This document shows, piece by piece, positions 1,144-41,855 of a DNA stretch of 41,855 bases. This DNA comes from Streptomyces sparsogenes. GTDB taxonomy: Bacteria; Actinomycetota; Actinomycetes; Streptomycetales; Streptomycetaceae. The first letter of the stretch is position 1, and each line of letters begins with the position of its first letter. The stretch covers positions 1-41,855 of the forward strand of contig NZ_MAXF01000036.1 in the NCBI RefSeq assembly GCF_001704635.1, given 5' to 3'. A program made the translations under genes and the position numbers. Below the pieces are notes generated by a model, which was not told the DNA's origin, did not search any database, and saw only the letters and a program-made list of their open reading frames with translations.

Positions 1144-1206
1144 TTTGTGGTGAGTATGGGACAGCGCCGTGACATCGGCGTGTCGCTGTCCCATACTCAC
1201 CACAAA
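1144..1206. repeat. Perfect long palindrome, copy 1 of a dispersed element
   Basis: Two 23-base arms, 1144-1166 and 1184-1206, are perfect reverse complements and flank a 17-base loop. The left arm begins TTTGTGGTGAG and ends TATGGGACAGCG. Inside the loop, CCG/CGG (1167-1169 and 1176-1178) could extend the stem. It lies 20 bases after the nicotinamidase stop, between two convergent genes, so it could act as a two-way terminator. A 30-base match to one orientation of this element occurs at 41821-41850, so the sequence itself is conserved and not only the fold. Confidence 0.9.
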
Positions 1207-1221
1207 TCGGCCGGCCCGGGC

Positions 1222-1533
1222 CTACGCCGTCGCGGGCGGCCGCAGCAGGGCCGCGATGGGGTGCCACAGCTCCCCCACCCCGTAGGGCGCCGTGCGCCAC
1301 ACCAGCCCGTCCGGGTGGTGCAGCACCGCCGTCACCTCGTCCGGGGTCGGCGGCGCGCTGTTCCCCCGCAGGTAGACCGCCCGCAGTCCGAGGTTGCGCA
1401 GCCTGGTCAGGGCGCGCTGGCGGTTCACGGCGTGCACCAGCACCCGTACGCCGCCCTCGCCGAGCGGTCGCGGCAGGGTCAGTGCCACGACCACGCTGCC
1501 GCCCGGCAGCTTGGTGAATCCTCCATCGGCCAT
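1222..1533 (-). CDS. Hypothetical protein, 103 residues
   Basis: I do not recognise the family. The product is a small soluble protein without signal peptide or membrane segment. It has a hydrophobic beta-rich start (GGSVVVALTLPRP), a basic middle (VNRQRALTRLRNLGLRAVYLRG) and a C-terminus with two Trp residues (GLVWRTAPYGVGELWHPI). Codon use is typical of the window, with G/C in nearly every third position, which supports real coding. The ATG at 1533 is preceded by GGGGGA about 11 bases upstream. A perfect TTGACA (minus strand, 1560-1565) lies just upstream, but I see no matching -10. It is convergent with nicotinamidase and lies downstream of the protease, separated from it by a hairpin. Confidence 0.65.
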   Translation of the reverse strand: MADGGFTKLPGGSVVVALTLPRPLGEGGVRVLVHAVNRQRALTRLRNLGLRAVYLRGNSAPPTPDEVTAVLHHPDGLVWRTAPYGVGELWHPIAALLRPPATA

Positions 1534-1597
1534 GGGTCCATGTCCCCCGTGAGACGTCGTGTCAACAAGAAAGGTCGTAGGGGCATCTAAACGCGAA

Positions 1598-1627
1598 CGG
1601 CCGCCGCCCGCTAGAGGGCGACGGCCG
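1598..1627 (-). terminator. Hairpin terminator candidate after the M6 protease
   Basis: Arms CGGCCGCCGCCC (1598-1609) and GGGCGACGGCCG (1616-1627) pair over 12 bp with one mismatch around a six-base loop, GCTAGA. It lies 40 bases past the protease stop on the minus strand and before the 103-residue gene. There is no long T tract, as is usual for GC-rich actinobacterial terminators. Confidence 0.65.
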
Positions 1628-1666
1628 CTACCGCTGTGACCTGCGACGATGGCAGATCCGTCGATC

Positions 1667-4060
1667 TTAGGAGGCGGACCGGGAGACCTGCACGGTCATC
1701 GTGGAGGTGCCCGGGAACTCCTTCAGGATGGAGATCCGGGTGTTGGTGTCAGCAACCCGCACCCCACCCGTCGGGTTGGATTCGTACCAGTACGTACCCT
1801 TGTGATCGTCGAAGACCGGCGTGCCCCGCTTCGCCGGGACCTTCGCGGCCACACCGTTCTTGTGGAGCGTGAAGCCGTCCGTCGGGTACCAGCTGAAGGG
1901 CGAGTCGTAGGTCTGGACGCGGTTGCGCATCAGCGTGCCGTCGGCCCAGGTGTGCGGGGTGGCGTGCGCGTCGACGGGCAGGATCTGGCCGTAGCCGGGG
2001 TGCTCGCCGACGTTGTTGTCCGGCTGCGAGGTGTCCCACAGCCAGATCAGCAGGCCGTTCTGGTACGGGAAGTGCTCGACCCAGTCGGGCCGGCTGCCCA
2101 GCCAGCCGAAGTTGTACGGGCCGGTCTTGAGGGTCTTGTCGTAGGACACGTACTGGCGGTTCTCGGCGATGTAGTACTGCGGGTAGTCCTTGCTGAAGGA
2201 CGCCCCGATGCGCGAGAAGCCGGCCGTGGTCCAGCCGTTGTCGTCGCCCTCGGCGCCGTCGGTCAGCACCGGCGCGCCGTCCGCCGTGAGGGTGATCGCG
2301 TCGGCCGCGAAGCCCCTCCCGGCGACGCCGCCGTCCGTCTGGTAGCGGAAGCGGAGCTGGATCTTCTTGCCCGCGTAGGCGTCGAGCGGGAAGGACAGCT
2401 TCTTGTACGCGCCCGAGGCCCCGGTCAGCGCGGGCTTGTCGGCGGCGTCGCGCGGAATGGCCTTGCCGTCCGCCGTGCCGTCCACCGGCGTCCAGTTGGC
2501 GCCGCCGTCCGTGGACACCTCGGTGTAGAGGTAGTCGTAGTTCTCCTCGATGTCCCACCAGCCCTTGAGGTCCAGGCTCGCCTTGGACTTGCCGGTGAGG
2601 TCCACGGACCGGGTCAGGGTGTTCTTGAGGTCGTCGCCCATGCCGCTCCACCACTGCTTGGAGCCCTCGGCGGGCGTGACGACCTCGGTGGTCACGGCCT
2701 TGTCGGGCAGCTGGACCACCAGCGCCTGCGGGTTCTTGGTGTTGTACTCGGCCGGCCCGAGGGTGTACCGGGACCTGGTGCCGGCCTTCGCCGTGTCGTA
2801 GTCCAGCCAGCCGAGCTGCAGCTTGTCCCAGGCGCTCATGTCGCCCGGCAGGTCGCCGATGGCGTCCTCGCCGGTGCCCAGCCAGGAGCCGGCGGACATC
2901 AGCGACCAGAAAGCGACCGCCGACTCGCCCTTGCCGGTGGTGTCGTACTCGTCCGGCAGGCCCAGGTCATGGCCGTACTCATGGGCGAAGACGCCGAGTC
3001 CGCCGTTCTCCGGCTGCATGGTGTAGTCGCCGACCCAGATGCCGGTGTCGCCGATCTGCGCGCCGCCGGCCTTGTTCCCGGCCGGGCCGGTCTGCCCCGC
3101 GTTCGTACCGTACGCGTACCAGCGGTGGGCCCAGATCGCGTCCGTGCCCTGGGTGCCGCCGCCCGCCGACTCGTCCTCGCCGGCGTGGACGATCTGGAAG
3201 TGGTCGATGTAGCCGTCGGGCTCGTTGAAGTTGCCGTCGCCGTCGAAGTCGTAGCGGTCCCACTGGTCGTACTTCGCCAGGTCCGCCTTGATGTCGGCGT
3301 CGCTGCGGCCGGCCGCCTTCTGGTCCTTGGCCCACTGGTTCACGCCGTCGCGGATCAGGTCCCAGGCGTTGGCGCAGTTGGTGTCGCCGCAGTAGTTGGA
3401 GCCGTAACGGGCCTCGTTCCAGTCGACTTTGACCCAGTCGGAGACCTCGCCGTCCACCGAGTAGCGGCCCGAGGACTGCTTCTCGTAGTACTTCTTCAGC
3501 GACTCCTTCCCCTTTTCGGCGGAGAAGTAGAGGTCCTGGAAGTGCTGCCGGTTGTAGTCCTTCTGCCAGGCGGTGCTGTTGTCGTCGGCCCGGTCCGGCT
3601 GGGGGATGGTGTTGTGCGCCGGGCCCGGCTGGCCGCCGTACTTCTTGACCGGCGGCTTCGGGCCGTCCGGGCCGTCCGGGTCGTACATGGTGGTGTCATC
3701 CACCTTGTCGCCGAACTCGACCAGGATCGTGAAGATCTTGTCGGTCTTCTCCCGGGCCAGCTCGACGTACTTGTCCTTGCCGAGCTTCACCACCCGCGAC
3801 GCGCCGCGCCGTTCGGCCTTCGCGTCGCCGGATATGACCTGGCGCAGCGCCTCCTCGCGCTGAGCCTCCTGCTGCTTGCTGTAGGGCCCGGCCAGGTCGT
3901 GCTCGACATCGGTCTTCGCGGGCGCCGGGTCGCGGCGTTCGACACGCGTAGACGAACCCTCGTCCGCCTGGGCCGCACTCGTCGAGAGCGCCGCCGCGCC
4001 GAGCGCGGCGACCACGGTGGCGATGGCGGCCGCTCTGGCGGCCCTCCGTTGACTGTTCAC
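1667..4060 (-). CDS. Secreted M6 metalloprotease (immune inhibitor A type)
   Basis: This 797-residue exported zinc endopeptidase has a basic N-terminus (NSQRRAARAA), a hydrophobic core and a likely AQA signal cleavage near residue 33. A propeptide-like charged region follows, then the catalytic domain with HEYGHDLGLPDEYD; the HExxH spans residues 360-364 with Glu361 as catalytic base. A Cys pair (NYCGDTNC) precedes it. The C-terminal part (GWWDIEENYDYLYTEVSTDG, then GRGFAADAITL) resembles the beta-sandwich domains of InhA proteins. I start it at GTG 4060, which has GGAGAA just upstream; ATG 4099 in the same frame would add 13 residues before the signal peptide. Known relatives degrade extracellular proteins; a nutritional or developmental role here is inference. 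A hairpin follows the stop. Confidence 0.93.
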   Translation of the reverse strand: MNSQRRAARAAAIATVVAALGAAALSTSAAQADEGSSTRVERRDPAPAKTDVEHDLAGPYSKQQEAQREEALRQVISGDAKAERRGASRVVKLGKDKYVELAREKTDKIFTILVEFGDKVDDTTMYDPDGPDGPKPPVKKYGGQPGPAHNTIPQPDRADDNSTAWQKDYNRQHFQDLYFSAEKGKESLKKYYEKQSSGRYSVDGEVSDWVKVDWNEARYGSNYCGDTNCANAWDLIRDGVNQWAKDQKAAGRSDADIKADLAKYDQWDRYDFDGDGNFNEPDGYIDHFQIVHAGEDESAGGGTQGTDAIWAHRWYAYGTNAGQTGPAGNKAGGAQIGDTGIWVGDYTMQPENGGLGVFAHEYGHDLGLPDEYDTTGKGESAVAFWSLMSAGSWLGTGEDAIGDLPGDMSAWDKLQLGWLDYDTAKAGTRSRYTLGPAEYNTKNPQALVVQLPDKAVTTEVVTPAEGSKQWWSGMGDDLKNTLTRSVDLTGKSKASLDLKGWWDIEENYDYLYTEVSTDGGANWTPVDGTADGKAIPRDAADKPALTGASGAYKKLSFPLDAYAGKKIQLRFRYQTDGGVAGRGFAADAITLTADGAPVLTDGAEGDDNGWTTAGFSRIGASFSKDYPQYYIAENRQYVSYDKTLKTGPYNFGWLGSRPDWVEHFPYQNGLLIWLWDTSQPDNNVGEHPGYGQILPVDAHATPHTWADGTLMRNRVQTYDSPFSWYPTDGFTLHKNGVAAKVPAKRGTPVFDDHKGTYWYESNPTGGVRVADTNTRISILKEFPGTSTMTVQVSRSAS

Positions 4061-4391
4061 TCTTCTCCAGTCCTCCCCAGTGACACCAGTGCGGGACATT
4101 TGACCGGAGAGGCAGGAGAAAAGACAGCCCTTGACTTGGACAGAGGGGACAAGTAGGTTTCCGGGCCCACCTCTACCGGATACCGGACGCCAACGGGCCC
4201 GCCGATCTCACCAGTTGGAATCGAGCACGGCTGTGTGCGCCCCTGCGCCCCCCGTGCAACGGCGCCGTGGGTCAGGTCACGCTTACTCGCGTTTCCCCTC
4301 GGGCATTCAGCACCGTAGAGTCATTTTGCCGGTGCACATCCGTGCGACTCCTGCCCCCCGCATAGTCGATGTCTCGAGGACGGATCCCGCC
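4061..4391. other. Divergent intergenic region, protease and small membrane protein
   Basis: About 330 bases without a gene, carrying the upstream regions of two divergent genes. It is visibly richer in A/T than its surroundings near 4100-4160 and 4290-4330. It contains a perfect 10-bp palindrome ACGGCGCCGT at 4259-4268 and a GCACGG/CCGTGC inverted pair just before it. TAGAGT at 4316-4321 could be a -10 box for the plus-strand gene, but its -35 match is poor. I see no convincing promoter for the protease. Confidence 0.5.
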
Positions 4392-4679
4392 ATGCCGCGC
4401 CCGACTCCTGCTCAGTTCGCCTACGGTTCGGCCACCGTCGTCTTGTCGACCTTCGCCATGCTGCTGCTGTCCCAGACGCGCGCGGGCCTCGGGGTCGCAG
4501 TGATCGCCGTGGCGGGGCTGGTGCTCGGACTCCTCGTCGCCGTCACGGTCCCCATGCCCGGCACCCCCCGCGCCGACCGGGCGACGGCGGCCCGTACGAA
4601 CCGCGCGTCCCGGACCCCCGCACACGCACATGCCGAGCCGCTGGAGCCGCGGGTCAGCGAGCACTCGCTGCGCGGCTGA
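4392..4679 (+). CDS. Small two-helix membrane protein, 95 residues
   Basis: I do not recognise a named family. The product has two hydrophobic segments, roughly residues 9-27 (FAYGSATVVLSTFAMLLLSQ) and 31-52 (LGVAVIAVAGLVLGLLVAV), joined by a short TRAG turn. A polar Arg/Ala/Pro tail of about 40 residues follows and should be cytoplasmic if both ends are inside. ATG 4392 is chosen because GAGGA lies 12 bases upstream and the first helix follows directly; the frame is open further upstream, but that part is not protein-like. It is convergent with the first RDD gene, with only about 20 bases between the stops. Confidence 0.65.
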   Translation: MPRPTPAQFAYGSATVVLSTFAMLLLSQTRAGLGVAVIAVAGLVLGLLVAVTVPMPGTPRADRATAARTNRASRTPAHAHAEPLEPRVSEHSLRG

Positions 4680-4698
4680 GGTCTCGGTCCTCGTCCGG

Positions 4699-5199
4699 CT
4701 AGGCCGCCACCACGACGGTCTTGGCCACCTTGTCGTGCAGGCACTGGCGCAGCGGCTGGTCCCAGGTGCACCACAGGACGTTGACCAGCCAGAACACGGT
4801 GCCCACCACCAGCGGGACCAGCATCCCCGGCAGCACGTACACCACGGCCCGCACCCAGCCCTGACCGTGCGGCACATCTCCGTCCGACAGCATCGCCACC
4901 CGGATGCGCAGCGCCTTCTTGCCGAGCGTCTGGCCGCTGCGGGCCAGCATCACGCCCTCGTAGACGAAGTAGACCGCCATGGTGATCACCAGGGCGAGGA
5001 TCACCTTGGCCACGTCCTGTTCGCCCGGGTGGTCATAGGCGTAGGCGAGCGCGCCGGTCGCGGTGAGCGCCACGGTCCAGATGACGCCGAGGATCAGGGT
5101 GTCGACCAGCCGGGCGGCGAAGCGCTGACCGGGGGTCGCGGGGGGCGGCATTCCTTCGGGGCGGGTGTCGTGCTGGTACGAGAGCTGGTCGGGGGTCAT
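4699..5199 (-). CDS. RDD family membrane protein (1 of 3)
   Basis: A 166-residue integral membrane protein of the RDD family, named for conserved Arg and Asp residues; the molecular function of most members is unknown. The Arg-Leu-Val-Asp of the first helix (RFAARLVDTLILGVIW) is present, as is the family segment GQTLGKKALRIRV between helices 2 and 3 and the C-terminal NVLWCTWDQPLRQCLHDK. About four membrane segments are predicted by eye. ATG 5199 is chosen because everything upstream in frame is low-complexity Pro/Arg; the ribosome site is weak. It is last of three same-strand RDD genes and shares the C-terminal signature with the other two, which suggests gene duplication. Confidence 0.85.
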   Translation of the reverse strand: MTPDQLSYQHDTRPEGMPPPATPGQRFAARLVDTLILGVIWTVALTATGALAYAYDHPGEQDVAKVILALVITMAVYFVYEGVMLARSGQTLGKKALRIRVAMLSDGDVPHGQGWVRAVVYVLPGMLVPLVVGTVFWLVNVLWCTWDQPLRQCLHDKVAKTVVVAA

Positions 5200-5229
5200 G
5201 CCCCGATTACACCAGCAGGCGGTGGACGG

Positions 5230-5299
5230 CGGACAGCGCGGGGGCGGTGGGGCGGGCGGGCGGGCGGTCGGTCGGGCGGGCGGTGGGCCGGGCGGCGGA
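5230..5299 (+). other. G-run array between RDD genes (quadruplex-prone)
   Basis: The plus strand carries many closely spaced GGG runs (GGGGG, GGGG, then repeated GGGC units) from about 5239 to 5293, directly upstream of the first RDD gene and downstream of the second. The G-rich strand is the template for these minus-strand genes, so their RNA would be C-rich here. The pattern meets the usual four-run G-quadruplex rule. Confidence 0.6.
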
Positions 5300-5971
5300 T
5301 CAGGACGGGACGGAGACCACGACCGTCTTGGCGACCTTGTCGTGCAGGCACTGGTGGAACGGCCGGTCCCAGGTGCACCACAACACATTGACCAGCCAGA
5401 AGATGAAGCCGCAGCACGGCACGATCTCCGGCAGGGCGTAGGTGCCGGCGCGCAGCCAGCCCGGCTGGCCGGCCGGGATCTCCCCGTTCTCCAGCATGGC
5501 GACGCGGATCCGCATGACCTTCTTGCCCACCGTCTGGCCGTACTTGGTCAGCATCAGCCCCTCGTAGACGAAGTACACCAGGGCGTAGACGATCGTCATG
5601 GCGGTCGCCTCGTTGTTGTTGTTCACCGGGTCGTAGTCCCCCACGAGCACCGCCATCACCAGGCCCACCGGGATGCCGATGATCAGCGCGTCGACGATCC
5701 GGGCGACGAGGCGGCGGCCGCGGTTCGCGAGCGGGGGCATGCCCGCGAGCGGGTCGGCCGCCCCGTGCTCGCCGCCGTATGTGCCGCCGTAGGGCGAGCC
5801 GTACGAGGGCGGCGGCTGCCGCCCGGCGAACCGGTCGCCCTCCGGCTGCTCGGGCCGCGGCTCCTCCGGCCGGGGCTCCTCCGGCCGGGGTTCCCCGGGG
5901 CGGGGCTCGCCGTCCCGGGGCTCGTGGGGCCGGGGATCATCGGGCCCCGGCGTCGGCTGGTCGGTGCTCAT
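5300..5971 (-). CDS. RDD family membrane protein with charged Pro/Glu tail (2 of 3)
   Basis: The 223-residue protein has a cytoplasm-like N-terminal region of about 80 residues followed by the RDD membrane domain. The N-terminus contains imperfect five-residue repeats of the type E-P-R-P-(G/E) (residues about 18-42) and a Tyr/Gly patch (YGSPYGGTYGGEHG). The membrane part has RLVARIVDALIIG, GQTVGKKVMRIRV and the signature NVLWCTWDRPFHQCLHDK, almost identical to the neighbouring RDD proteins. NNNNE lies in a predicted loop. The ATG at 5971 gives a natural MSTDQPTPGPDD start. The repeats may bind partners or simply be a flexible linker; that is inference. It lies between the other two RDD genes in the same direction. 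Confidence 0.88.
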   Translation of the reverse strand: MSTDQPTPGPDDPRPHEPRDGEPRPGEPRPEEPRPEEPRPEQPEGDRFAGRQPPPSYGSPYGGTYGGEHGAADPLAGMPPLANRGRRLVARIVDALIIGIPVGLVMAVLVGDYDPVNNNNEATAMTIVYALVYFVYEGLMLTKYGQTVGKKVMRIRVAMLENGEIPAGQPGWLRAGTYALPEIVPCCGFIFWLVNVLWCTWDRPFHQCLHDKVAKTVVVSVPS

Positions 5972-6100
5972 GGCCCGAGTCGACCCCGGAGCCGGGGCAG
6001 CCGCATCCGGCGCGCTCCGTTCGGGCGACCGGGATGCACCGTACGTGTCAGCGCCCCGTACGGTGCCCGCGACCCGGCGGGCCGGGCCCGGCCCGGCCCC

Positions 6101-9070: not shown

Positions 9071-9150
9071 GGGCTGGGCTCCTTGCGGGCGGAGCCGCCC
9101 TGCGCGGTGGCGGGGGGCCGGCGCGCAGGGCGGGGCGGTGCTGGGTGGGG

Positions 9151-19459: not shown

Positions 19460-19522
19460 ATGGCGTTGCGGGGGCAGATGGCCGGATGGTGGCGTACACC
19501 GCCCTTCGGAGTGACCCTCTGA
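19460..19522 (+). CDS. Putative 20-residue leader ORF coupled to the RHS gene
   Basis: ATG 19460 opens a 20-codon frame, MALRGQMAGWWRTPPFGVTL, whose stop TGA (19520-19522) shares one base with the RHS start ATG (19522) as TGATG. A GGGGG run lies five bases before the leader start. Such an arrangement would let ribosomes finishing the leader restart on the long toxin gene. The ORF is short, so chance is possible; it also has two Trp codons in a row. Confidence 0.3.
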   Translation: MALRGQMAGWWRTPPFGVTL

Positions 19523-22500
19523 TGGGGTGGGATCTGACGCCCGACTGGCTCGACGACGCGGTCGAGTCGGGCACGGAGGCCGTCGGGGACGGTGTCGAGT
19601 GGCTGGGGAACAAGACCGCGGAGGGCCTGGACAAGGTCGGCTGGGAGAGCGGGGCCGACTGGGTCCGCGACAAGTCCCGCTCCGCGGCCAACGCCCTGGG
19701 CGCCGACGTGGCCGAGATGCGGCTGGACGAGACCGAGGACTCGAGGAAACTGGTCTTCGGCAGCGCGGGCAAGCTGCGGTCCACGGCCACCCACCTGCGC
19801 GACTTCCAGAAGGCGTTCGACCAGGTCGGCAAGGGGCTGAAGGGACTGGACGCCTCCCATCTGAAGGGTCAGAGCGCGGACACCTTCCGCGAGAAGGTGT
19901 CCGTCGAACCGCAGAAGTGGTTCAAGGCGGCCGACGCCTGCGAGAAGGCCGCGGCGGCCCTGGAGGGCTTCGCCGGCACCGTGGAGTGGGCACAGGGCCA
20001 GGCGGCAGAGGCCGTCGAGGCGTACAAGGCGGCGAAGAAAGCGTCGGAGGAGGCGCGGTCCGCGCACAACGCGAAGGTGGAGGCATACAACACGGCGGCC
20101 GACACCTACAACGCCGCCGTCAAGGACGGCAAGGACCCGGGGCCCGAGCCGAAGAAGCCGGGGGCCTTCCACGACCCGGGCCCGGCGAAGGCCAAGGCCG
20201 CGCAGGAGATCCTGGACGAGGCGCGGCGGCAGCGGAACAAGGCGGAGGAGACGGCGCGCAGGGCGGTGGAGCAGGCGCGGGACGCGGCCCCGCCCAAGCC
20301 CTCCTACAGCGAGCAGGTCAAGGACGGGCTGGACGGCCTGTCACTGGATCTGGACCACTTCGCCGGCGGGGTGGTCAAGGGGACGGCTGGGCTGGTCAAC
20401 TTCGCGCGTCAGCTCAACCCCCTGGACCCGTACAACCTGACCCATCCAGCCGAGTATGTGACGAATCTGAACAGTACGGCGGCGGGTCTGGTCACGCTGG
20501 CCAACGACCCGATGGGCGCGGGCAAGAACATGCTCGACGCCTTCGCCAAGGACCCCGGCGAGGGGCTGGGCCGACTGGTGCCCGAACTGATCGGCACCAA
20601 GGGACTCGGCGTGGCCCGGGAGGGCCTGACGGCCGCCTCGTACGCCCGGCGCGGGACGGAGGCCGCGCGGGCGACCCGGGCCGGAGAGGACGCGGCGCGG
20701 GCGGCGCTGCGCAAGGAGGGGCGGCACCCGTTCGCGCGGGAGGACGCCCGGAAGACCTGCAAGGGCACCGATCCGGTGGATCTGGCGACGGGCAAGATGT
20801 TCCTGCCGCAGACGGACGTGGCCCTGCCCGGTGATCTGCCGCTGGTGTTCCGCCGCCGGGTGGAGTCCGGCTATACGGCAGGGGGCTGGTTCGGCCCGTC
20901 GTGGTCGAGCACGGCCGACCAGCGGCTGGAGATCGACGCCGAGGGCGTGGTGTTCATCAGCGAGGACGGGCTGCTGCTGCCCTATCCGCACCCGGCCCCC
21001 GGCCTGCCCACCCTCCCCGAAGCGGGCCCCAGGTGGCCGCTGGAACGGGACCCCGACGGCGACTACACCCTCACCGACCCCGCCACCGGACACACCCGCC
21101 ACTTCACCGGACCACGGGGCGGAGGCGACGGGGTCGCGCGGCCGGCGCGGATATCCGACCGCTCGGGCCACGTCATCGCCTTCGAGTACGACGCCGACGG
21201 AGCGCCCGCCGCCCTCGTCCACTCCGGCGGCTACCACCTGAAGCTGACCACCCAGGACGACCGGATTACCGCCCTGCACCTGGCCGGCGGCGCGCCCGAC
21301 GGCTCCGACCAGGAGATCGTCCGCTACGGCTACACCGACGGCAACCTCACCGAGGTCGTCAACTCCTCCGGTCTGCCGCTGCGGTTCGAGTACGACGACG
21401 AGCGCCGGGTCATCTCCTGGACCGACACCAACCAGCGCCGCTACGACTACGTCTACGACAACCGCGACCGCTGCATCGCCGAGGGCGGCGAGGCGGGCCA
21501 CGTCTCGGTGCGGCTGGACTACGACCGCGTCGACCAGGCCACCGGCCACCGGATCACGACCGTCACCACCCCCGACGGCCACACCACGCGCTACCTGGTC
21601 AACGGCCTCTGCCAGGTCGTCGCCGAGACCGACCCGCTGGGCCACACCACCCGTACCGCCTACGACCGCCACCACCGGCCGCTGACCCGCACCGATGCCC
21701 TCGGCCACACCACCACCCACACCTACGACGAGGCCGGGCGCCTCGTCGCCGTCACCCGCCCGGACGGCCGCCGGGCCACCGCCACGTACGACGCGTTCGG
21801 CCTGCCCCTCACCCTGACCGGCGCGGACGGCGCCACCTGGCGGCAGACCTACGACGAGGCGGGCCGCCGCACCGCCCTGACCGACCCGGCGGGTCACACC
21901 ACCCACTACACCTATGACGCCCGGGGCCACCTGGCCGCCGTCACCGACGCGCTGGGCGCCACCACCCATGTGCGCTGTGACGCGGCGGGCCTGCCCGTCG
22001 AGATCACCGACCCGCTGGGCGCCACCACCCGCTACGAGCGCGACGCGTTCGGCCGCCCCGTCGCCCTCACCGATCCGCTCGGCCGCACCACCCGGCTGGA
22101 GTGGACGGTCGAGGGCAAGCTCGCCACCCGTACCCACCCGGACGGCAGCCGGGAGTCGTGGACGTACGACGGCGAGGGCAACTGCACCAGCCACACCGAC
22201 CCGGGCGGCGCCACCACCCGTTGCGAGTACACCCACTTCGACCTGCCGGTGGCCCGCACGGGCCCGGACGGGGTGCGCTACGAGTTCAGCCACGACAGCG
22301 CGCTGCGGCTGACCCAGGTCACCAACCCGCAGGGGCTGACCTGGTCCTATGAATACGATCCGGCGGGCCGCCTGGTGGCCGAGACCGACTTCGACGGCCG
22401 CACCCACACGTACGCCCACGACGCGGCCGGATGGCTCACCGCCCGCACCAACCCGCTCGGCCAGACGATCCACTACGAGCGCGACGCGCTGGGCCGCACG

Positions 22501-24273
22501 GTCCGCAAGACCGCCGACGGCCGGACCACCACCTTCACCTACGACCCCGCCGGACACCTGGCCACCGCCACCGGACCCGACGTCGAGGTGGCCTACCACC
22601 GCGACCGCATGGGCCGCGTCAAGTCCGAAGTGGTGGGCGACCGGGTCCTCACCCACGCGTACGACGCGCTGGGCCGCCGGGTGCGCCGCACCACCCCCAC
22701 GGGCGCCACCACCACCTACGCCTACGACCCGGCGGGCAACCGCACCACCCTCACCGCCTCCGGCCACACCCTCGCCTTCGACCACGACGCCACAGGCCGC
22801 GAAACCACCCGCCACATCGACGACACCCTCACCCTCGCCACCGCCTGGGACCCCCTCGGCCGGCTCACCGCCCAGACCCTCACCGGCCACACCCTCACCG
22901 GCCAGGCGGCCGCCGCCCCCCTCCACCACCGCACGTACACCTACCGTCCCGACGGCCACCTCACCGGCATCGACGACCACCACACCGGCCCCCGGACCTT
23001 CACCCTCGACACGGCGGGCCGCGTCACCACCGTCCGCGCCGAGGGCTGGACCGAGACCTACGCCTACGACGAGGCCGGCAACCAGACCCACGCCACCTGG
23101 CCCGAGCCCCACCCCGGCACCGACACCGACGCCCACGCCGACGCCGATGCCGACGCCTCGGGAGACCGTGCGTACACCGGCACCCGCATCACCCGCGCCG
23201 GGCGCGTCCGCTACGAGCACGACGGCGCGGGCCGGCTCACCCTCCGTCAGAAGACCCGCCTCTCCCGCAAGCCCGACACCTGGCGCTACACCTGGGACGC
23301 CGAGGACCGCCTCACCGCCGTCACCACCCCCGACGGCACGGTGTGGCGCTACCTGTACGACCCCCTCGGCCGCCGCACCGCCAAACAACGCCTCGCCGAC
23401 GACGGCGAAACGGTCGTCGAGCAGACCGACTTCACCTGGGACGGGCCCACCCTCGTCGAGCAGACCACCACCACACCCGGCCTCCCCCACCCCACCACCC
23501 TGACCTGGGACCACCAGGGCCGCCACCCCGTGGCCCAGACCGAGCGCACCACCGACACCGCCACCCAGCGCGAGATCGACCAGCGCTTCTTCGCCATCGT
23601 CACCGACCTCATCGGCACCCCCACCCATCTCGTCGACGAGACCGGCGACATCGCGTGGAAGGCCCGCACCGCCCTGTGGGGCACCACCACCTGGGCCGCC
23701 GACAGCACCACGTACACGCCGCTCCGCTTCCCCGGCCAGTACGACGACCCGGAAACCGGCCTCCACTACAACCACCACCGCTACTACGACCCCGAAACCG
23801 CCCGCTACCTCACCCCCGACCCCCTGGGCCTGGCCCCCGCCCCCAACCCCGCCACCTACGTCCACAACCCCCACACCTGGGCGGACCCGTTGGGCCTGGG
23901 CCCGTACCCCGGCGGCGAAACCCGTTCCGGGGTCGGGAAGTTCCTCGGCAAGCTCTTCACCCGCCAGCCCTCTGCCGAGGAATTGTCCGACGCGGCCATC
24001 AGGGCCAAGCGGGTGCCCATGAGACTGGAGGACCTGCAAGACGTCGTTCTGCACGATCGCACCGAGCCGGAGAAGTTGGCGGCCATGCGCGGAATGGATG
24101 ACGAACGCCTCCTGGAGTCGATCAACAACCCGGACGAGCTGGGCGGCAGCATCGTCATGGGCAACGGAGAGCTGGTCAATGGGAACCACCGCATCGGCGA
24201 GGCCCTGGATCGCATGCACGACCCGTACTCTCCAGGAATCACCCCCGACACAGAGGTTTGGGTTGTCCCATGA
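19522..24273 (+). CDS. RHS polymorphic toxin with ParB-like C-terminal domain
   Basis: A 1583-residue modular toxin. Residues 1-200 resemble the WXG100/T7SS-signal N-terminus of actinobacterial RHS proteins (LDDAVESGTEAVGDGVEWLG, then long Ala/Lys/Glu helices to about 270), suggesting type VII export. A DUF6531-like segment starts at Cys413 (CKGTDPVDLATGKMF). More than fifteen YD-type repeats follow, of the YDEAGRLVAVTRPDG form, ending in the RHS core RYYDPETARYLTPDPLGL. A second DPLGL near residue 1455 marks the junction; the last ~125 residues are the toxin, with LEDLQDVVLHDR and GELVNGNHRIGEALDR (Asn1553-Arg1557), resembling ParB/sulfiredoxin-fold nucleases. ATG 19522 is favoured by GGAG ten bases upstream; ATG 19486 is possible. 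The end overlaps the next gene (ATGA). Confidence 0.9.
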   Translation: MGWDLTPDWLDDAVESGTEAVGDGVEWLGNKTAEGLDKVGWESGADWVRDKSRSAANALGADVAEMRLDETEDSRKLVFGSAGKLRSTATHLRDFQKAFDQVGKGLKGLDASHLKGQSADTFREKVSVEPQKWFKAADACEKAAAALEGFAGTVEWAQGQAAEAVEAYKAAKKASEEARSAHNAKVEAYNTAADTYNAAVKDGKDPGPEPKKPGAFHDPGPAKAKAAQEILDEARRQRNKAEETARRAVEQARDAAPPKPSYSEQVKDGLDGLSLDLDHFAGGVVKGTAGLVNFARQLNPLDPYNLTHPAEYVTNLNSTAAGLVTLANDPMGAGKNMLDAFAKDPGEGLGRLVPELIGTKGLGVAREGLTAASYARRGTEAARATRAGEDAARAALRKEGRHPFAREDARKTCKGTDPVDLATGKMFLPQTDVALPGDLPLVFRRRVESGYTAGGWFGPSWSSTADQRLEIDAEGVVFISEDGLLLPYPHPAPGLPTLPEAGPRWPLERDPDGDYTLTDPATGHTRHFTGPRGGGDGVARPARISDRSGHVIAFEYDADGAPAALVHSGGYHLKLTTQDDRITALHLAGGAPDGSDQEIVRYGYTDGNLTEVVNSSGLPLRFEYDDERRVISWTDTNQRRYDYVYDNRDRCIAEGGEAGHVSVRLDYDRVDQATGHRITTVTTPDGHTTRYLVNGLCQVVAETDPLGHTTRTAYDRHHRPLTRTDALGHTTTHTYDEAGRLVAVTRPDGRRATATYDAFGLPLTLTGADGATWRQTYDEAGRRTALTDPAGHTTHYTYDARGHLAAVTDALGATTHVRCDAAGLPVEITDPLGATTRYERDAFGRPVALTDPLGRTTRLEWTVEGKLATRTHPDGSRESWTYDGEGNCTSHTDPGGATTRCEYTHFDLPVARTGPDGVRYEFSHDSALRLTQVTNPQGLTWSYEYDPAGRLVAETDFDGRTHTYAHDAAGWLTARTNPLGQTIHYERDALGRTVRKTADGRTTTFTYDPAGHLATATGPDVEVAYHRDRMGRVKSEVVGDRVLTHAYDALGRRVRRTTPTGATTTYAYDPAGNRTTLTASGHTLAFDHDATGRETTRHIDDTLTLATAWDPLGRLTAQTLTGHTLTGQAAAAPLHHRTYTYRPDGHLTGIDDHHTGPRTFTLDTAGRVTTVRAEGWTETYAYDEAGNQTHATWPEPHPGTDTDAHADADADASGDRAYTGTRITRAGRVRYEHDGAGRLTLRQKTRLSRKPDTWRYTWDAEDRLTAVTTPDGTVWRYLYDPLGRRTAKQRLADDGETVVEQTDFTWDGPTLVEQTTTTPGLPHPTTLTWDHQGRHPVAQTERTTDTATQREIDQRFFAIVTDLIGTPTHLVDETGDIAWKARTALWGTTTWAADSTTYTPLRFPGQYDDPETGLHYNHHRYYDPETARYLTPDPLGLAPAPNPATYVHNPHTWADPLGLGPYPGGETRSGVGKFLGKLFTRQPSAEELSDAAIRAKRVPMRLEDLQDVVLHDRTEPEKLAAMRGMDDERLLESINNPDELGGSIVMGNGELVNGNHRIGEALDRMHDPYSPGITPDTEVWVVP

Positions 24274-33562: not shown

Positions 33563-33571
33563 GAAGGCGAT

Positions 33572-35433: not shown

Positions 35434-36027
35434 ATGTTGTCCTTCAACCGTTCGTTTTTCGCCACCGCCGTGCTCGTCTCCGCGGCCCTCACCCTCACCG
35501 CCTGCGGTCCCAAGGACACCGGCTCCACCGGCTCCAAGCGCGGATCCAGCGCCTCGGCCGGCCACTCCACGAAGAAGGTCGGCAAGGAGAACAGCAAGAA
35601 GGCCAAGAAGGCGAAGAAGACCACCGGCGACTGTCCCACGATCGGCACGGGGCACAAGATCATCTGGGTCAACAACGTCGAGGGCGCGATGAACAACATC
35701 ATCGCCAAGGACGCCAGGATGCACTGCGACCCGAAGTCGCGGGCGGGGGCGTCCTACCAGCCCATCGGGCAGCCGAACACCTACTCCGTCGCCTCGGGCG
35801 CCACCAAGGTGACGATCATCAGCAAGAAGGACTCCCGGCAGAAGGCCCTCACCGCCCAGAGCGGCGGCATCGCCCACGTCAAGACGTGCGCCGACCCGGA
35901 CGGCAAGAGCTACGACGGCGGCCAGACGAAGGCGGACACCAGCGACTGCTGGGGGCAGAACTTCTACGACGTCGCGGTCGACAAGAACAACAAGATCACG
36001 CAGATGACGGAGATCTACGGATCGTGA
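35434..36027 (+). CDS. Secreted lipoprotein of unknown function
   Basis: The 197-residue product has a short lipoprotein signal (FNRSFFATAVLVSAALTLTAC) with the lipobox Leu-Thr-Ala-Cys, then a Ser/Gly/Lys linker with a strongly basic run (SKKAKKAKKTTGDC). The mature part has CPTIGTGHKIIWVNNVEGAM, NNIIAKDARMHCD, VTIISKKDS, HVKTCADPDG and SDCWGQNFYDVAVD; its five Cys residues suggest disulfides in the extracytoplasmic domain. I do not recognise the family. ATG 35434 follows GGGGGAA at once; upstream is a 260-base gap with AT-richer sequence that must carry its promoter. A hairpin lies six bases past the stop. It is convergent with the YeiH gene. Confidence 0.8.
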   Translation: MLSFNRSFFATAVLVSAALTLTACGPKDTGSTGSKRGSSASAGHSTKKVGKENSKKAKKAKKTTGDCPTIGTGHKIIWVNNVEGAMNNIIAKDARMHCDPKSRAGASYQPIGQPNTYSVASGATKVTIISKKDSRQKALTAQSGGIAHVKTCADPDGKSYDGGQTKADTSDCWGQNFYDVAVDKNNKITQMTEIYGS

Positions 36028-36032
36028 CGGCG

Positions 36033-36062
36033 GTGGGGCCCGGCTGCCACGCCAGGCCCCAC
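36033..36062. terminator. Hairpin between convergent lipoprotein and YeiH genes
   Basis: GTGGGGCC (36033-36040) and GGCCCCAC (36055-36062) are perfect arms around a 14-base loop. The element lies six bases after the lipoprotein stop and 24 bases before the YeiH stop on the other strand, so it could end both transcripts. Confidence 0.6.
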
Positions 36063-36085
36063 TCGGCCGTCACCGCACCGACCCG

Positions 36086-37336: not shown

Positions 37337-37370
37337 CCGCGAGAGGCCGGGCCGGCGGCCGGCTCCGGGG

Positions 37371-37943
37371 TCACAGCTCCTCGCCCTTCGGGGACTCGTA
37401 CACGCGCCGGACGCTGCTGCCCAGGCGGCTGACGTCCGCGCCGTAGACGTGGATGGAGATCGCCCTGTCCGCGCCCGCGTTCCACACCCTGTGGATATCG
37501 CCGGGCGGCGCGAAGCCGGCGGCCGAGCCGCGTGGGTTGGTCACCTCCGCCACCGCGACCAGGCGGGAGGTGGTGCCGTCGGGGACGAGGTGGTAGCGGC
37601 GCTCGCGCTCCTGGCCCTCGTGGACGCCGGCCACGCACCACGAGACGTGGTCGTGGATGGCGGTGCGCTGGCCAGGCAGCCAGACGAGGGCGACGACGGA
37701 GAAGCTGCCGTCGGGTTCGGCGTGCAGGAGGTGCTGGCGGTAGGTCTCGGGGTCGCCCTGCCGCTGGTCCGGCGTGAGCAGGTCGGGCGCGCCCAGGTGG
37801 GGGGCGAGGCGCTCGGCCACCAGATGGGCGGTGAGGTCCGGCGCCAGGCCACGCCGGACGGCCTCGCGTACCTCGTCGACGAACGCGCTGACGCGCGGAG
37901 TGGCGTACAGGATGGGCGGCGCGGAGGCGGTCGGAGTGGTCAT
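37371..37943 (-). CDS. Cysteine dioxygenase family protein
   Basis: The 190-residue cupin belongs to the thiol dioxygenases that convert cysteine to cysteine sulfinate with Fe(II) and oxygen. The three-His metal site is visible: His-Asp-His in AIHDHVSWCVAG and the later His in PPGDIHRVWNAG. Glu in GVHEGQE follows the first motif, and the C-terminal SIHVYGAD is also typical. The length is usual for the bacterial enzymes. ATG 37943 is accepted although its ribosome site is poor. It lies between the LysR regulator (94 bases upstream) and the YeiH exporter. Related enzymes act on mercaptopropionate or other thiols, so cysteine is likely but not certain. Confidence 0.9.
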   Translation of the reverse strand: MTTPTASAPPILYATPRVSAFVDEVREAVRRGLAPDLTAHLVAERLAPHLGAPDLLTPDQRQGDPETYRQHLLHAEPDGSFSVVALVWLPGQRTAIHDHVSWCVAGVHEGQERERRYHLVPDGTTSRLVAVAEVTNPRGSAAGFAPPGDIHRVWNAGADRAISIHVYGADVSRLGSSVRRVYESPKGEEL

Positions 37944-38037
37944 GGACGCAGCGTCCTGCCGCCCCTTCCACCGCGTCCAACGACGGTTTCTTCGCGGACC
38001 TCAAGAGGTGCTTATGGGTCTCGCCTCCGGCGATCGC

Positions 38038-38943
38038 TCAGCACCCGACCCGGTTCGCCGCCACCGCCTTCAGCTCCTCCAGCACCACCTCCGTCGCCGG
38101 CACCCGCAGATGCTCCCGCAGCACGTACGCCGAGACGTGACGGCGGGAGGCGGGCTCCAGGGCGCGGCCGGTGACCTTCCGGTGGCAGAGGAAGGAGAGT
38201 ACGAGCCCGGGCATCATCGCGACGCCGAGCCCCGCCGCGACCATGCTCTGGACGACGAGGTTGTCGTCGCTGGTGAAGGCGATGTCGGGGGCGAAGCCCT
38301 GCTCCGCGCACTCGTGCAGGAAGTTGGCGCGGCAGCGCAGGCAGCCCGCGATCCAGCGCTCCCCGCTCAGCTCGGCGAGCTTGACGGCCCGCCGCCGGGC
38401 CAGCGGGTGGCCGGTGGGCAGCAGCACCGTCAGCTGGTCTTCGAGGAGGGGGATCTCGACCAGTTCGGCGGGGGCCTCCTCGCGCAGGCCGGGGTAGGTG
38501 AAGGCGAGCGTGATGTCGCACTCGCCGCGCGCCACCCGTGCCAGGGACTCCGGGGGCTCGCCTTCGAGCAGCTCCACGCGCACGCCGGGGTGGGCGGCGG
38601 CGAGGCGGGCCATCGCCTCGGGGATGAGGGTGGCATTGGCACTGGGGAAGCCGCAGAGGCGCACCCGGCCGGAGCGCAGCCGGGTGATGGCGTTCAGCTG
38701 CTGCCGGGCGGAGGAGATCGAGTCGAGGATGATGTCGGCGTGGCGAGCCAGGGTCTCCCCGGCCTCGGTAAGCCGCATGCCGCGGCCGACGCGGACGAAG
38801 AGGGGGCTGCCGACCTCCCGCTCGAGCGCCCTCATCTGCTGGGTGATCGCCGGTTGCGTATAGCCGAGGGCACGGGCGGCCGCGGAGTAGGAACCGGCGC
38901 GGATCACCTCGCGGAACGTCTTGATGTGCCGGGAATCGAACAC
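38038..38943 (-). CDS. LysR family regulator of the sulfur module
   Basis: The 301-residue regulator has the LysR winged helix (residues 1-60: IKTFREVIRAGSYSAAARAL, GYTQPAITQQMRALEREVGS) and a periplasmic-binding-protein-like effector domain (GRVRLCGFPSANATLIPEAM, LLPTGHPLARRR, SDDNLVVQSMVAAGLGVAMM). A Cys-x-x-Cys (GCLRCRANF) in the effector domain could sense sulfur or redox state, which is speculation. I start it at GTG 38943: TATGAT (38950-38955, minus strand) lies six bases upstream, so the message is probably leaderless; GGAG directly abuts the codon, too close to act as a ribosome site. It precedes the dioxygenase and exporter on the same strand, recalling the enterobacterial yeiE-yeiH pairing. 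Confidence 0.9.
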   Translation of the reverse strand: MFDSRHIKTFREVIRAGSYSAAARALGYTQPAITQQMRALEREVGSPLFVRVGRGMRLTEAGETLARHADIILDSISSARQQLNAITRLRSGRVRLCGFPSANATLIPEAMARLAAAHPGVRVELLEGEPPESLARVARGECDITLAFTYPGLREEAPAELVEIPLLEDQLTVLLPTGHPLARRRAVKLAELSGERWIAGCLRCRANFLHECAEQGFAPDIAFTSDDNLVVQSMVAAGLGVAMMPGLVLSFLCHRKVTGRALEPASRRHVSAYVLREHLRVPATEVVLEELKAVAANRVGC

Positions 38944-38949
38944 CTCCGA

Positions 38950-38955
38950 ATCATA
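38950..38955 (-). promoter_or_regulatory. TATGAT -10 box six bases before the LysR start
   Basis: TATGAT on the minus strand matches the consensus in five of six positions and leaves six bases to GTG 38943, the spacing expected for a leaderless transcript. The -35 region (GTGCCT at 17 bases) is a weak match. Confidence 0.5.
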
Positions 38956-39184
38956 AGCGGAACTTGGAGTCCAGGCACATCTCCCCTCCACCGCTTTTGG
39001 ATCTCCCCCATCTCCCTCACCGGCACCCACGAGTCAGTACGCCTTGACACTGCGACCCGCACTCCACCTCACCCCAGCTCCATCCGCTCGATCCGCTCGT
39101 TGTGGGTATCCGGGTCCCCAGGAGGGACCCGGGCCTCGGCGCGGGACACGGAAGCCGGACCGAGAGAACAGGCAAGCTGGACCA

Positions 39185-40057
39185 ATGCCCCATTACGCCT
39201 CGTACGACGCCGCCGAACTCGCCTACCGCGTCCTCGGGCCCCGCACCGGCGAGGGAGCCGCCCGGCCGCCGCTCCTGTGCCTGGCCGGCGGGCCGGGGCG
39301 GGACGCCGCGTACCTGGGCGACCTGGGCGGGCTCGACACCCACCGCACCCTGGTCCTCCCCGACAGCCGCGGCACCGGCGACTCCCCGCCCGCCGCCGAC
39401 CCGATCGGCTACGCCTTCCCCCGCCTGGCCGAGGACGTCGAGGCGCTCCGCCGCCACCTCGGTCTCGAGCGGTTCGCGCTCCTCGCCCACGACGCGGCCG
39501 CCGCGACGGCCCAGGCGTACGCCGCCGCCCACCCCGAGCGGCTGACGCACCTGATCCTGGTCTGCCCCGGCGCCCGGATGCAGGGCGAACTCCCCCAGGA
39601 CGCCCGCGAGATCTTCGAGTCCCGGGCCGACGAGCCGTGGTGGCCCGACGCCTACGACGCGGTCCAGACGCTGCCCGACACCACCGACCTGGGCGAGGTG
39701 CGCAGGCTCCTGCTGCGGGCCGCCCCCATGGCGTACGGGCGCTGGGAGGAGCCCCAGCGGGCCCACGCGGCGAGCGAGGGCGAGCAGTTGGGGCCGGTGC
39801 CCCGCGCGGGCTTCTGGCAGGGCGTGGACGAGGCGGCACGGCGGGCGGTCCTGGCCCGGCTGCGGGAGGTGCCGTGCCCGGTCCTCGTGGTGACCGGCAA
39901 CCGCGACGCGGTGACCGGCATGCGCGCCGGCGAGCTGGTCGCGGAGTCCTTCCCGAACGGCCGGGTACGGCCGCTGCCCGGCGTGGGCCACTACCCGTGG
40001 GTCGACGAGCCGGACCTCTTCCGGTCGGTGGTCGAGGAGTTCCTCACCGGCGCCTGA
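39185..40057 (+). CDS. Alpha/beta hydrolase with Asp in the nucleophile position
   Basis: The 290-residue protein has the proline-iminopeptidase-like start (LLCLAGGPGRDAAYLGDL, LVLPDSRGTGDSPP) but its nucleophile elbow reads LLAHDAAAATA, placing Asp103 where Ser is usual. The acid residue is probably Asp in TGNRDAVTG and the His lies in GVGHYPWVDEP. An Asp nucleophile is normal in epoxide hydrolases and haloalkane dehalogenases, yet the rest resembles peptidase-type members, so either the chemistry has changed or the enzyme is inactive. ATG 39185 lacks a clear ribosome site; the longer frame is not protein-like. It is divergent from LysR, with 241 bases between; control by LysR is possible. 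Confidence 0.82.
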   Translation: MPHYASYDAAELAYRVLGPRTGEGAARPPLLCLAGGPGRDAAYLGDLGGLDTHRTLVLPDSRGTGDSPPAADPIGYAFPRLAEDVEALRRHLGLERFALLAHDAAAATAQAYAAAHPERLTHLILVCPGARMQGELPQDAREIFESRADEPWWPDAYDAVQTLPDTTDLGEVRRLLLRAAPMAYGRWEEPQRAHAASEGEQLGPVPRAGFWQGVDEAARRAVLARLREVPCPVLVVTGNRDAVTGMRAGELVAESFPNGRVRPLPGVGHYPWVDEPDLFRSVVEEFLTGA

Positions 40058-40136
40058 GACTCCTGACACTCCTGAGGGCCGCCCCGGCCCATCATGAACG
40101 CCGTATGTCAGTCACGTGGCGGCCCCCGCCGCACCA

Positions 40137-40165
40137 TTGTGGGCCCCGACCCCCGCCCCTAATCT
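40137..40165 (+). promoter_or_regulatory. Promoter candidate for tRNA-Cys
   Basis: TTGTGG (40137-40142), 17 bases, TAATCT (40160-40165). Transcription would start near 40172, leaving about 15 bases of leader before the tRNA 5' end, a normal value. Confidence 0.5.
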
Positions 40166-40186
40166 CAAGGGCACGAGCACGACCTT

Positions 40187-40258
40187 GGCCGTGTGCCCGA
40201 GTGGTTCAGGGACTCGCCTGCAAAGCGAGTTACGCGGGTTCGATTCCCGCCACGGCCT
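40187..40258 (+). tRNA. tRNA-Cys (anticodon GCA)
   Basis: The 72-base cloverleaf is complete: acceptor GGCCGTG pairing with CACGGCC, D stem CCC/GGG, anticodon stem CTCGC/GCGAG with loop CTGCAAA (anticodon GCA), a four-base variable loop, T stem GCGGG/CCCGC with loop TTCGATT, and discriminator T, as expected for cysteine. CCA is encoded at 40259-40261. The final A of the CCA is also the first base of the ATG of the following protein gene. Confidence 0.97.
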
Positions 40259-40260
40259 CC

Positions 40261-40959
40261 ATGAACATCGAGAACATGGTCCAGATCCCCGCCGGGGAGA
40301 TCGTCCTGCGGGACGAGGGCACGCGGACGGACTGGCGGGTCGAGGTCGCGGCCTTCCGGCTGGCGCCGCACCCGGTGACCCACGAGCTGTACCGCTCCGT
40401 ACGAGGCGAGGCCCCGGCGAGCCCGGCGGGACCTGGTTCTGCCGAGGGGTCCGCCGACGGATCGCGGACGCCGGTGACCGAGGTGTCCTGGCGGGACGCG
40501 GTCCGGTTCTGCAATCTGCTCTCCGAGGCAAGCGGCCTCACGCCCTGCTACGAGCTGGGCGAGGGCGGCCCCGACGCGCAGGACGTGCGCTGCGACTGGG
40601 CGGCCGACGGCTATCGCCTGCCCTCCGAGGCGGAGTGGGAGTACGCCTGCCGGGCCGGGACCTCCGGTGTGCGCTACGGCGAGCTGGACGAGATCGCCTG
40701 GTATCGCGGGAATTCCGGCGAGCGAGTGCGCGAGGTCGCGGGCAAGGCGCCGAACGCGTGGGGTCTCCACGACATGATCGGCAATGTGTGGGAGTGGTGC
40801 TGGGACCTGTACGACCCCGGCGTCTACGGCCCGTACCGGGTCTTCCGGGGCGGAGGGGCGTACGACCCCCCGCGCGGCTGCCGGGCGTCGTGCCGCCGCA
40901 AGAGCCACCCGACCCTGCGCATCGACGACCTCGGGTTCCGTCTCGCCCGGTCGGTGTGA
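40261..40959 (+). CDS. SUMF1/FGE-sulfatase domain protein
   Basis: The 232-residue protein has the SUMF1 fold used by formylglycine-generating enzymes and many ligand-binding or catalytic relatives: MVQIPAGEIVLRDEG, APHPVTHELYRSV, VTEVSWRDAVRFCNLLSEAS, YRLPSEAEWEYACRAGTSG, NAWGLHDMIGNVWEWCWDLY, RVFRGGGAYD and GFRLARSV. Cys residues near the end (GCRASCRR) are spaced Cys-x3-Cys, not the spacing of copper-binding FGE, so sulfatase activation is doubtful. The family start would fit ATG 40276 equally well; ATG 40261 overlaps the tRNA CCA. No ribosome site is visible before either, only a GAG run inside. It is a single-domain version, shorter than typical FGE. No sulfatase gene is in the window. 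Confidence 0.88.
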   Translation: MNIENMVQIPAGEIVLRDEGTRTDWRVEVAAFRLAPHPVTHELYRSVRGEAPASPAGPGSAEGSADGSRTPVTEVSWRDAVRFCNLLSEASGLTPCYELGEGGPDAQDVRCDWAADGYRLPSEAEWEYACRAGTSGVRYGELDEIAWYRGNSGERVREVAGKAPNAWGLHDMIGNVWEWCWDLYDPGVYGPYRVFRGGGAYDPPRGCRASCRRKSHPTLRIDDLGFRLARSV

Positions 40960-41014
40960 CCGACTACATGGCCACAGCAGGCAACCTGAACCCCCGCTGA
41001 ACCATCTCCATCGT

Positions 41015-41812
41015 GTGTATAAACGTAAGAACATATCGACGGACCGGAGGCGCGGGGCAAAGCCGATAGCCGGGATCCTGGCGGCCGCCTCCCTCGCGCT
41101 CGCGCTCGCCGGCTGCGGCACCTCGTACGACACCACCGCGCCGAGCAGCGTCCGCGACCGAGCCCTGGCCGACGGCAAGGACGTCAAGGCCGGGTCCGTC
41201 GACTGCTCCAAGGCCAAGTGCGTCGCCCTCACCTTCGACGCCGGGCCCAGCGAGAACACCCCCCGCCTGCTGGACATCCTGAAGAAGGAAGACGCCCACG
41301 CGACCTTCTTCATGCTCGGCAAGAACCACGTCCTCAAATACCCCGACCTGGTGCGCCGCATCGCGGCCGAGGGCCATGAGCTGGCCAATCACACGTGGAC
41401 CCACAAGATCCTGACGAAGGCCGACGACGACGAGGTGCGCGACGAGATCACCCGCACCCAGGACGCCGTATCCAAGATCACCGGGTCGAAGAAGCCCCTC
41501 CTGATGCGCCCGCCGCAGGGCCGCACCGACGACCGGGTCACCAAGATCTGCCGCGAGCTGGGCATCGCCCAGGTGTTGTGGAGCGTCACCGCGAAGGACT
41601 ACCAGACGACAGACTCCGCGCTCATCACCAAGCGGGTGCTCGACCAGGTGGACCGCGACGGCATCATCCTGCTGCACGACATCTACAAGGGGACCGTGCC
41701 CGCCGTCCCGGGGATCCTCGAAGGACTCAAGAAGCGCGGCTACACGGTCGTCAGCGTCTCCGAGCTGATGGCCCCCGCGAAGCCCGAGGCCGGCACGATC
41801 TACAAGCCTTGA
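41015..41812 (+). CDS. CE4-type polysaccharide deacetylase lipoprotein, altered motifs
   Basis: A 265-residue lipoprotein with lipobox Leu-Ala-Gly-Cys (Cys34) after a basic start (VYKRKNISTDRRRGAKP). The CE4 domain has LTFDAGPSENT (Asp75 kept, second Asp replaced by Ala76), His126 and His130 in HTWTH, RPPQG instead of RPPYG, and LHD in ILLHDIYKG. The usual second Asp of TFDDGP binds the metal, so activity is uncertain; it may use only the His pair. Extracytoplasmic peptidoglycan or polysaccharide is the likely target. GTG 41015 is chosen as the only start ahead of the signal; no ribosome site is seen before it. It follows the SUMF1 gene by 55 bases and is followed by the second copy of the window's palindrome. 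Confidence 0.88.
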   Translation: MYKRKNISTDRRRGAKPIAGILAAASLALALAGCGTSYDTTAPSSVRDRALADGKDVKAGSVDCSKAKCVALTFDAGPSENTPRLLDILKKEDAHATFFMLGKNHVLKYPDLVRRIAAEGHELANHTWTHKILTKADDDEVRDEITRTQDAVSKITGSKKPLLMRPPQGRTDDRVTKICRELGIAQVLWSVTAKDYQTTDSALITKRVLDQVDRDGIILLHDIYKGTVPAVPGILEGLKKRGYTVVSVSELMAPAKPEAGTIYKP

Positions 41813-41820
41813 GCCCAGCT

Positions 41821-41855
41821 TTGTGGTGAGTATGGGACAGCGACACGCCACGCCG
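41821..41855. repeat. Second copy of the dispersed palindrome, cut by the window edge
   Basis: From 41821 the sequence matches the reverse complement of the 1144-1206 element for 30 bases (the full 23-base arm plus seven loop bases), then differs. The other arm would lie beyond the window. It lies eight bases after the stop of the lipoprotein gene, again directly 3' of a gene. Confidence 0.85.

Follow-up and report, generated by a model that had tools for sequence, protein, structure and literature searches.

The DNA analysed here, referred to as the window, is a stretch of 41,855 nt from Streptomyces sparsogenes that makes up the complete contig C206, one of 275 contigs in a Streptomyces genome of 8.9 Mb. 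Near its left end, a + strand gene encoding an isochorismatase domain (540..1124), annotated as a nicotinamidase at first pass, converges with a − strand gene without a Pfam match (1222..1533), and a palindrome lies between their stop codons, 19 bases after the former and 15 bases before the latter. The perfect inverted repeat with 23-base arms that the first-pass annotation had reported here is indeed found at 1144-1166 and 1184-1206. When copies were compared, this element resolved into a left arm 5 bases short of the complete 31-base arm (1144..1169), a six-base variable loop (1170..1175) and a right arm complete at 31 bases (1176..1206). The whole element (1144-1206) folds at -48.8 kcal/mol on the + strand and -48.5 kcal/mol on the − strand, and none of 200 shuffled sequences folded as well.

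At the right end, a + strand gene encoding a polysaccharide deacetylase domain (41015..41812) stops 7 bases before the arm of a second copy (41820..41855), which is incomplete because the contig ends at 41855 inside the element. The inverted match between the two copies, already seen at first pass across 40 kb, is perfect over 30 bases (1177-1206 against 41820-41849), one base away from the position 41821-41850 given at the time. The loops differ after the shared bases, as had been described, but in part because 5 left-arm bases are missing from the first copy. The final 6 bases of the second copy depart from the family sequence and may be a contig-end error. Searching the window with a 21-base arm at up to 3 mismatches gave 3 matches, compared with 0 in 100 shuffles. 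In an Rfam search of the window, a tRNA was the sole match. The window also contains a long gene (19522-24273) whose DNA carries 63-base spaced repeats and whose translation resembles an RHS/YD-repeat protein.

A multi-copy family of narrow range

The same 21-base arm search over the genome yielded 46 forward and 46 reverse matches, and 0 with the reversed control. We built a covariance model from an alignment of 24 copies, 20 from this genome and 4 from the relatives named below, and accepted matches with an E value of 0.01 or better. The model found 114 matches, which correspond to 57 places with both strands counted; the sequence-conserved palindrome is therefore a dispersed family, as proposed at first pass, and not merely the two copies of the window. 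As 150 of 13438 first-look candidates were scored with the model, a few weak copies could have been missed. The complete unit spans 68 bases, in which the 31-base arm TTTGYGGTGAGTATGGGACAGCGACACGCCG and its reverse complement enclose six variable bases. Arms are paired throughout the genome except at contig ends and where the partner has diverged, and a loss from the left arm like that of the window copy is seen in a few other copies. A solitary or tandem extra CACCACAAA, the outermost part of the arm, stands beside some copies (flanks of L061, L076 and L161, and the start of contig C207 at L066). In nine stretches (L077, L134, L136, L137, L142, L147, L151, L153 and L167), the palindrome lies between two small genes in a locus that recurs several times per genome; the translations alongside read as helix-turn-helix or DUF397-like genes in some of them.

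Contig ends cut 4 of 58 copies (in C29, at the window end of C206, in C207 and in C268), compared with about 0.25 expected for 550 ends, and the hairpin therefore probably breaks the assembly. Contig C207 starts inside a copy. A join between it and the right end of the window was unsupported: the genes at these two ends have orthologues that sit on separate contigs in Streptomyces sp. NBS 14/10 and S. milbemycinicus, and about 634 kb from each other within a single contig of another Streptomyces genome, G096.

The range of the family is narrow, being limited to a few Streptomyces genomes. A 25-base core at up to 3 mismatches was found in 3 of 392 genomes of the genus, which are the present genome, G096 with one palindrome and G289 with one weak single arm; the covariance model likewise located one place in G096. 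A further search of 61 relatives, 37 of them already within the earlier set, gave no additional carrier. An exact scan of GTDB genomes returned four stretches, from Streptomyces sp. NBS 14/10 and S. milbemycinicus NRRL 5739, in which the model made 65 and 74 matches, or about 33 and 37 places, respectively. The median identity of flanking sequences is 88.9% between the present genome and NBS 14/10, 88.0% between the present genome and S. milbemycinicus, and 94.6% between the two relatives. No copies were found among plasmid and phage records with one query or among viral contigs with an exact pattern. In a literature search with subscription literature mostly outside its scope, no title or abstract described the family and the arm sequence matched no paper.

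Copies lie behind genes

We examined the position of copies relative to genes called by a codon-usage script. The set comprised 58 places, that is, the 57 without the weakest (C29:20035) and with two contig-end fragments from a pattern search. Five lie at contig edges, and the remaining 53, with called genes on both sides, comprise 39 between convergent genes, 14 between tandem genes and none between divergent genes, so that the 3′ bias which the first-pass annotation wished to see checked is strong. A second detector placed 37 copies between convergent, 14 between tandem and 0 between divergent pairs (n = 51), compared with 30, 136 and 66 of the 232 other gene pairs at the same loci. The excess of convergent pairs (37/51 versus 30/232) has a P value of 6.5e-17 and the lack of divergent pairs (0/51 versus 66/232) a P value of 5e-7. 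In the two relatives, convergent, tandem, divergent and edge positions numbered 18, 9, 1 and 2 of 30 places and 12, 9, 3 and 2 of 26, counts that leave aside ten stretches in which a contig end cuts the place or divergence takes it outside the regular expression. Among the four copies in divergent pairs, at least that at L142 looks like a gene-calling error. The nearest facing stop codon lies at a median of 1 nt in NBS 14/10 (n = 29); the medians for the present genome and S. milbemycinicus are 11 nt (n = 52) and 10 nt (n = 22), respectively.

A strong stem just past the stop codon is what a terminator would offer, and the copy at L007 folds at -69 to -71 kcal/mol whichever side it is transcribed from. 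No U-tract follows the stem, which ends in CAAA with GTCACTGG on the tail side, and intrinsic termination is therefore uncertain. In Streptomyces clavuligerus, structured transcript ends lacking a U-tract outnumber the U-rich ones (353 versus 182), and 55 ends are bidirectional with XRE-DUF397 genes over-represented; the authors of that study liken the U-lacking ends to I-shaped terminators or Rho-dependent ends (PMC8269248). Given that precedent, we infer a two-way 3′-end hairpin that would act by pausing or as an exonuclease barrier. The family is thus plausibly a predicted two-way transcript-end hairpin behind genes.

The position of copies would suit a different role equally well. BIMEs have been proposed as protein-binding sites that handle supercoiling between convergent genes, and the palindrome could likewise be a DNA site bound by a protein, for instance gyrase or some other protein of the chromosome, through which such supercoiling is relieved or insulated, its RNA hairpin being incidental. 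The convergent bias and the conserved arm sequence fit a DNA site as well as they fit an RNA hairpin. However, copies in tandem pairs are mostly closer to the upstream stop codon than to the next start codon (12/14 in the present genome and 15/18 in the relatives), a placement needless for an insulator. Together with the arm variants described below, this leads us to regard a DNA site as unlikely.

To compare the palindrome with ordinary hairpins, control stretches were taken between strong known copies. Hairpins with arms of at least 18 bases occurred in 7 of 54 convergent pairs in 400 kb of G096 and 5 of 49 in 360 kb of NBS 14/10, compared with 2/204 and 1/167 tandem pairs and 0/55 and 0/45 divergent pairs, respectively. 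Among 84 control hairpins with arms of at least 12 bases, no family emerged and one similar pair was found, from a single G096 stretch. This bears out, for two related genomes, the earlier statement that plain terminators share shape and not sequence. In these genomes it is common for hairpins to occupy the same slot but unusual for them to have the same sequence.

Copies come and go at orthologous sites

Neither NBS 14/10 nor S. milbemycinicus has the first copy of the window at the orthologous junction. After the last gene of the window, neither relative leaves room for the element, because the next gene is convergent and the two overlap by 13 bases. In S. milbemycinicus, the junction orthologous to window positions 1125-1221 (L175 and L183) carries tandem 13-base repeats, CGCGCTACAAATC and variants, in place of the palindrome. 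Of 14 copies of the present genome judged likely to be unshared, 8 had their flanks close together in a relative, and the element was present in none of the 8. Among 17 copies of NBS 14/10 judged likely to be unshared with S. milbemycinicus, 13 were resolved, with 9 absent in at least one relative and 4 present in the S. sparsogenes genome.

Orthologous junctions without the element were thus collected at 17 sites, picked as likely to be unshared, and these junctions indicate that copies come and go. The arm occurred in 0 of 30 distinct junctions, as expected from the choice of sites, and 9 of the 30 fold better than their shuffles (z ≤ -2; 20 single-base shuffles each), so that a different hairpin sometimes occupies the same slot. 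Because the surrounding intergenic DNA also differs, the empty junctions do not give the exact insertion points. At least one copy (L057/L119) is common to the present genome and NBS 14/10 and its site is empty in S. milbemycinicus; some absences are therefore probably losses.

Losses also enter into a reading in which the copies are ancestral terminators, kept alike by gene conversion and thinned by scattered losses without any transposition-like spread. According to our reading of the locus comparison, about 14 of the 57 loci fetched from the present genome are matched in a relative by a copy at the orthologous place. The differences between such copies are almost as large as those between other copies (means of 7.3, 7.7 and 11.7 versus 9.0, 10.1 and 11.0, with a number of paralogous loci among the orthologous set), and similarity within a genome slightly exceeds that between genomes (difference of 0.45; 0/500 permutations). 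Against this reading, however, the two window sites and the 17 tested sites, the latter chosen as likely to be unshared, are empty in relatives, the core is missing from nearly all of the 392 genus genomes, and non-family hairpins in the same type of slot share no sequence. We therefore consider descent from ancestral terminators quite unlikely, and prefer a family that spread in a transposition-like manner.

No RAYT or convincing target duplication found

The first-pass annotation had suggested a REP/MITE-like family spread by copying and a search for a RAYT-type transposase. The dispersed family, the 3′ bias and the presence and absence at orthologous sites agree with the first suggestion, but membership in RAYT-type REPs or classical MITEs is unsupported, and the search for a RAYT returned only a Y1 transposase that scores as an IS200/IS605 TnpA. 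The single PF01797 match in the present genome reached 139 bits with the IS200/IS605 model and 34 bits with the RAYT model, and the Y1 proteins tested ranged over 116-146 and 21-34 bits, respectively, relative to a RAYT cut-off of 80 bits. The neighbourhood of the Y1 gene reads as including an adjoining TnpB-like gene. We rejected this IS200/IS605-type transposase as the spreader; its gene shares a contig with a copy at a distance of about 13 kb, has no arms alongside and has end hairpins that differ from the palindrome.

To look for target duplications, we tested 108 copies at six offsets for direct repeats 3, 4 or 6 bases long. None was convincing: the numbers were about those of mismatched pairs, with the exception of one 3-base test (9 versus 2.7), and none was longer than 4 bases. 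No arms far enough apart to suggest a parent element were seen in the 392 genus genomes at up to 3 mismatches, a search by which a diverged parent could be missed.

The edge profile of 216 ends reads TGRN before TTTG. REP hairpins have a GTRG-type tetranucleotide as their foot, and such a foot was not seen at the 216 ends. Of 109 copies, 39 have the tail CCAGTGAC, at up to 2 mismatches, at one end alone, and none has it at both; shuffled tail motifs gave a mean of 1.5 end matches and a maximum of 28. A one-sided tail is what a discrete unit would show, one whose left and right ends differ, even though the role presumed for it is symmetrical. Among copies in tandem pairs, the tail pointed with transcription and against it equally often (8 versus 8).

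Could the family nevertheless depend on a RAYT, or be a classical MITE, with the transposase encoded elsewhere in these genomes? The element is palindromic, multi-copy and extragenic, at 57 places 3′ of genes as in REPs, and short and non-coding with terminal inverted repeats as in MITEs; its two ends can be told apart, and a Y1 transposase is present in all three rich carriers and missing from the one-copy genome G096, a comparison of four genomes. The RAYT scores far below the cut-off, the lack of arms and the different end hairpins at the Y1 gene, and the absence of target duplications make this very unlikely.

Stop codons, paired arms and possible loop turning

Of 27 stop codons that lie 0-1 base from the palindrome, 26 are TGA, compared with 61 of 108 at 5-60 bases. 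In the alignments as we read them, the stop codon is conserved in relatives at L108 and L114, and the C-terminus differs at L117. The TGA at the edge may be a target or part of the unit.

The 3100 arm pairs of 100 full-length copies comprise 2879 matches and 221 mismatches. When right arms were dealt anew among copies, the mean was 397 mismatches and the minimum in 1000 trials was 358; this test takes copies as independent, with relatedness uncontrolled. Variants that change both arms together are thus common, which speaks against the DNA site considered above. The mismatched cells include 65 G-T and 82 A-C, roughly equal numbers that reveal no preference for RNA wobble on one strand, which counts in favour of a DNA site. 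The covariation of the arms could arise from selection on RNA alone.

We also compared orthologous copies oriented by their flanks. Of 28 pairs, 4 had no recognised copy, 3 were unequal in length and 21 were compared; the centre looked inverted in 8, unchanged in 10 and unclear in 3. By the same rule, non-orthologous pairs look inverted in 24.5% of cases, giving P = 0.12 for 8/21, an excess over chance that is not clear. Stricter rules, chosen afterwards, gave 7/21 seemingly inverted loops (P = 0.0016) and, for whole elements of NBS 14/10 versus S. milbemycinicus, 3/8 inverted (P = 3e-5), with some pairs being non-independent. Template-switch mutation in hairpins is a mechanism for loop turning that predicts both paired arm changes and turned loops (PMC8794818). 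The same study calls loop inversion with compensatory change extremely rare, whereas here 7-8 of 21 orthologous pairs look inverted (PMC8794818). Support for in-place loop turning by template switching is moderate.

Discussion

Our main reading, to which we give a probability of about 0.6, is that the palindromes of the window belong to a REP/MITE-like hairpin family of about 57 copies, which likely spread in a transposition-like manner and has a predicted bidirectional role at 3′ ends without a U-tract. A copy would arrive near a stop codon by a mechanism that leaves no target duplication. It would be kept there because RNA polymerase, from whichever side it transcribes the long stem, stops or pauses with no need of a U-tract; alternatively, the stem may block 3′-5′ exonucleases after Rho-dependent release. 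The symmetry of the arms would be maintained by template switching, in which one arm of the folded hairpin serves now and then as the template for renewing the other, and which could also turn the loop round. A more specific version is doubtful in our judgement: the hairpin would be a mobile full stop that moves to gene ends at TGA, bringing or adopting the TGA along with a two-way end, with self-mending arms and a turning loop.

The family resembles several known systems. Like REPs and BIMEs with their RAYTs, described as short multi-copy extragenic palindromes often found between convergent genes (PMC1525189), it may protect or shape RNA 3′ ends, as those elements are thought to do; unlike them, it has no RAYT that we found, and it is a near-perfect palindrome with the edge TGRN instead of a hairpin on a GTRG foot. 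With MITEs it shares the short non-coding dispersed unit with inverted ends, but the palindrome has no target duplication and no parent element was seen. The I-shaped or U-lacking ends of GC-rich bacteria have in common with it a strong stem at gene 3′ ends without a U-tract (PMC8269248); they are a shape class, whereas here one sequence stands at dozens of gene ends. A repeated sequence at gene ends is also found in Neisseria, where inverted pairs of DNA uptake sequences serve as terminators; the arms here, in contrast, are 31 bases long and suggest no uptake role.

The usual view is that each terminator arises on its own. In this family, a single sequence has seemingly been dealt to dozens of gene ends, recently enough for related species to differ in the genes that carry it. 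The gain of a 3′ end could thereby be studied as a natural before-and-after experiment, and the copies are a test bed for how long palindromes keep their symmetry in bacteria. For work on Streptomyces, hairpins of this kind may lie behind some contig breaks, and they could serve as compact 3′-end parts that act in both directions.
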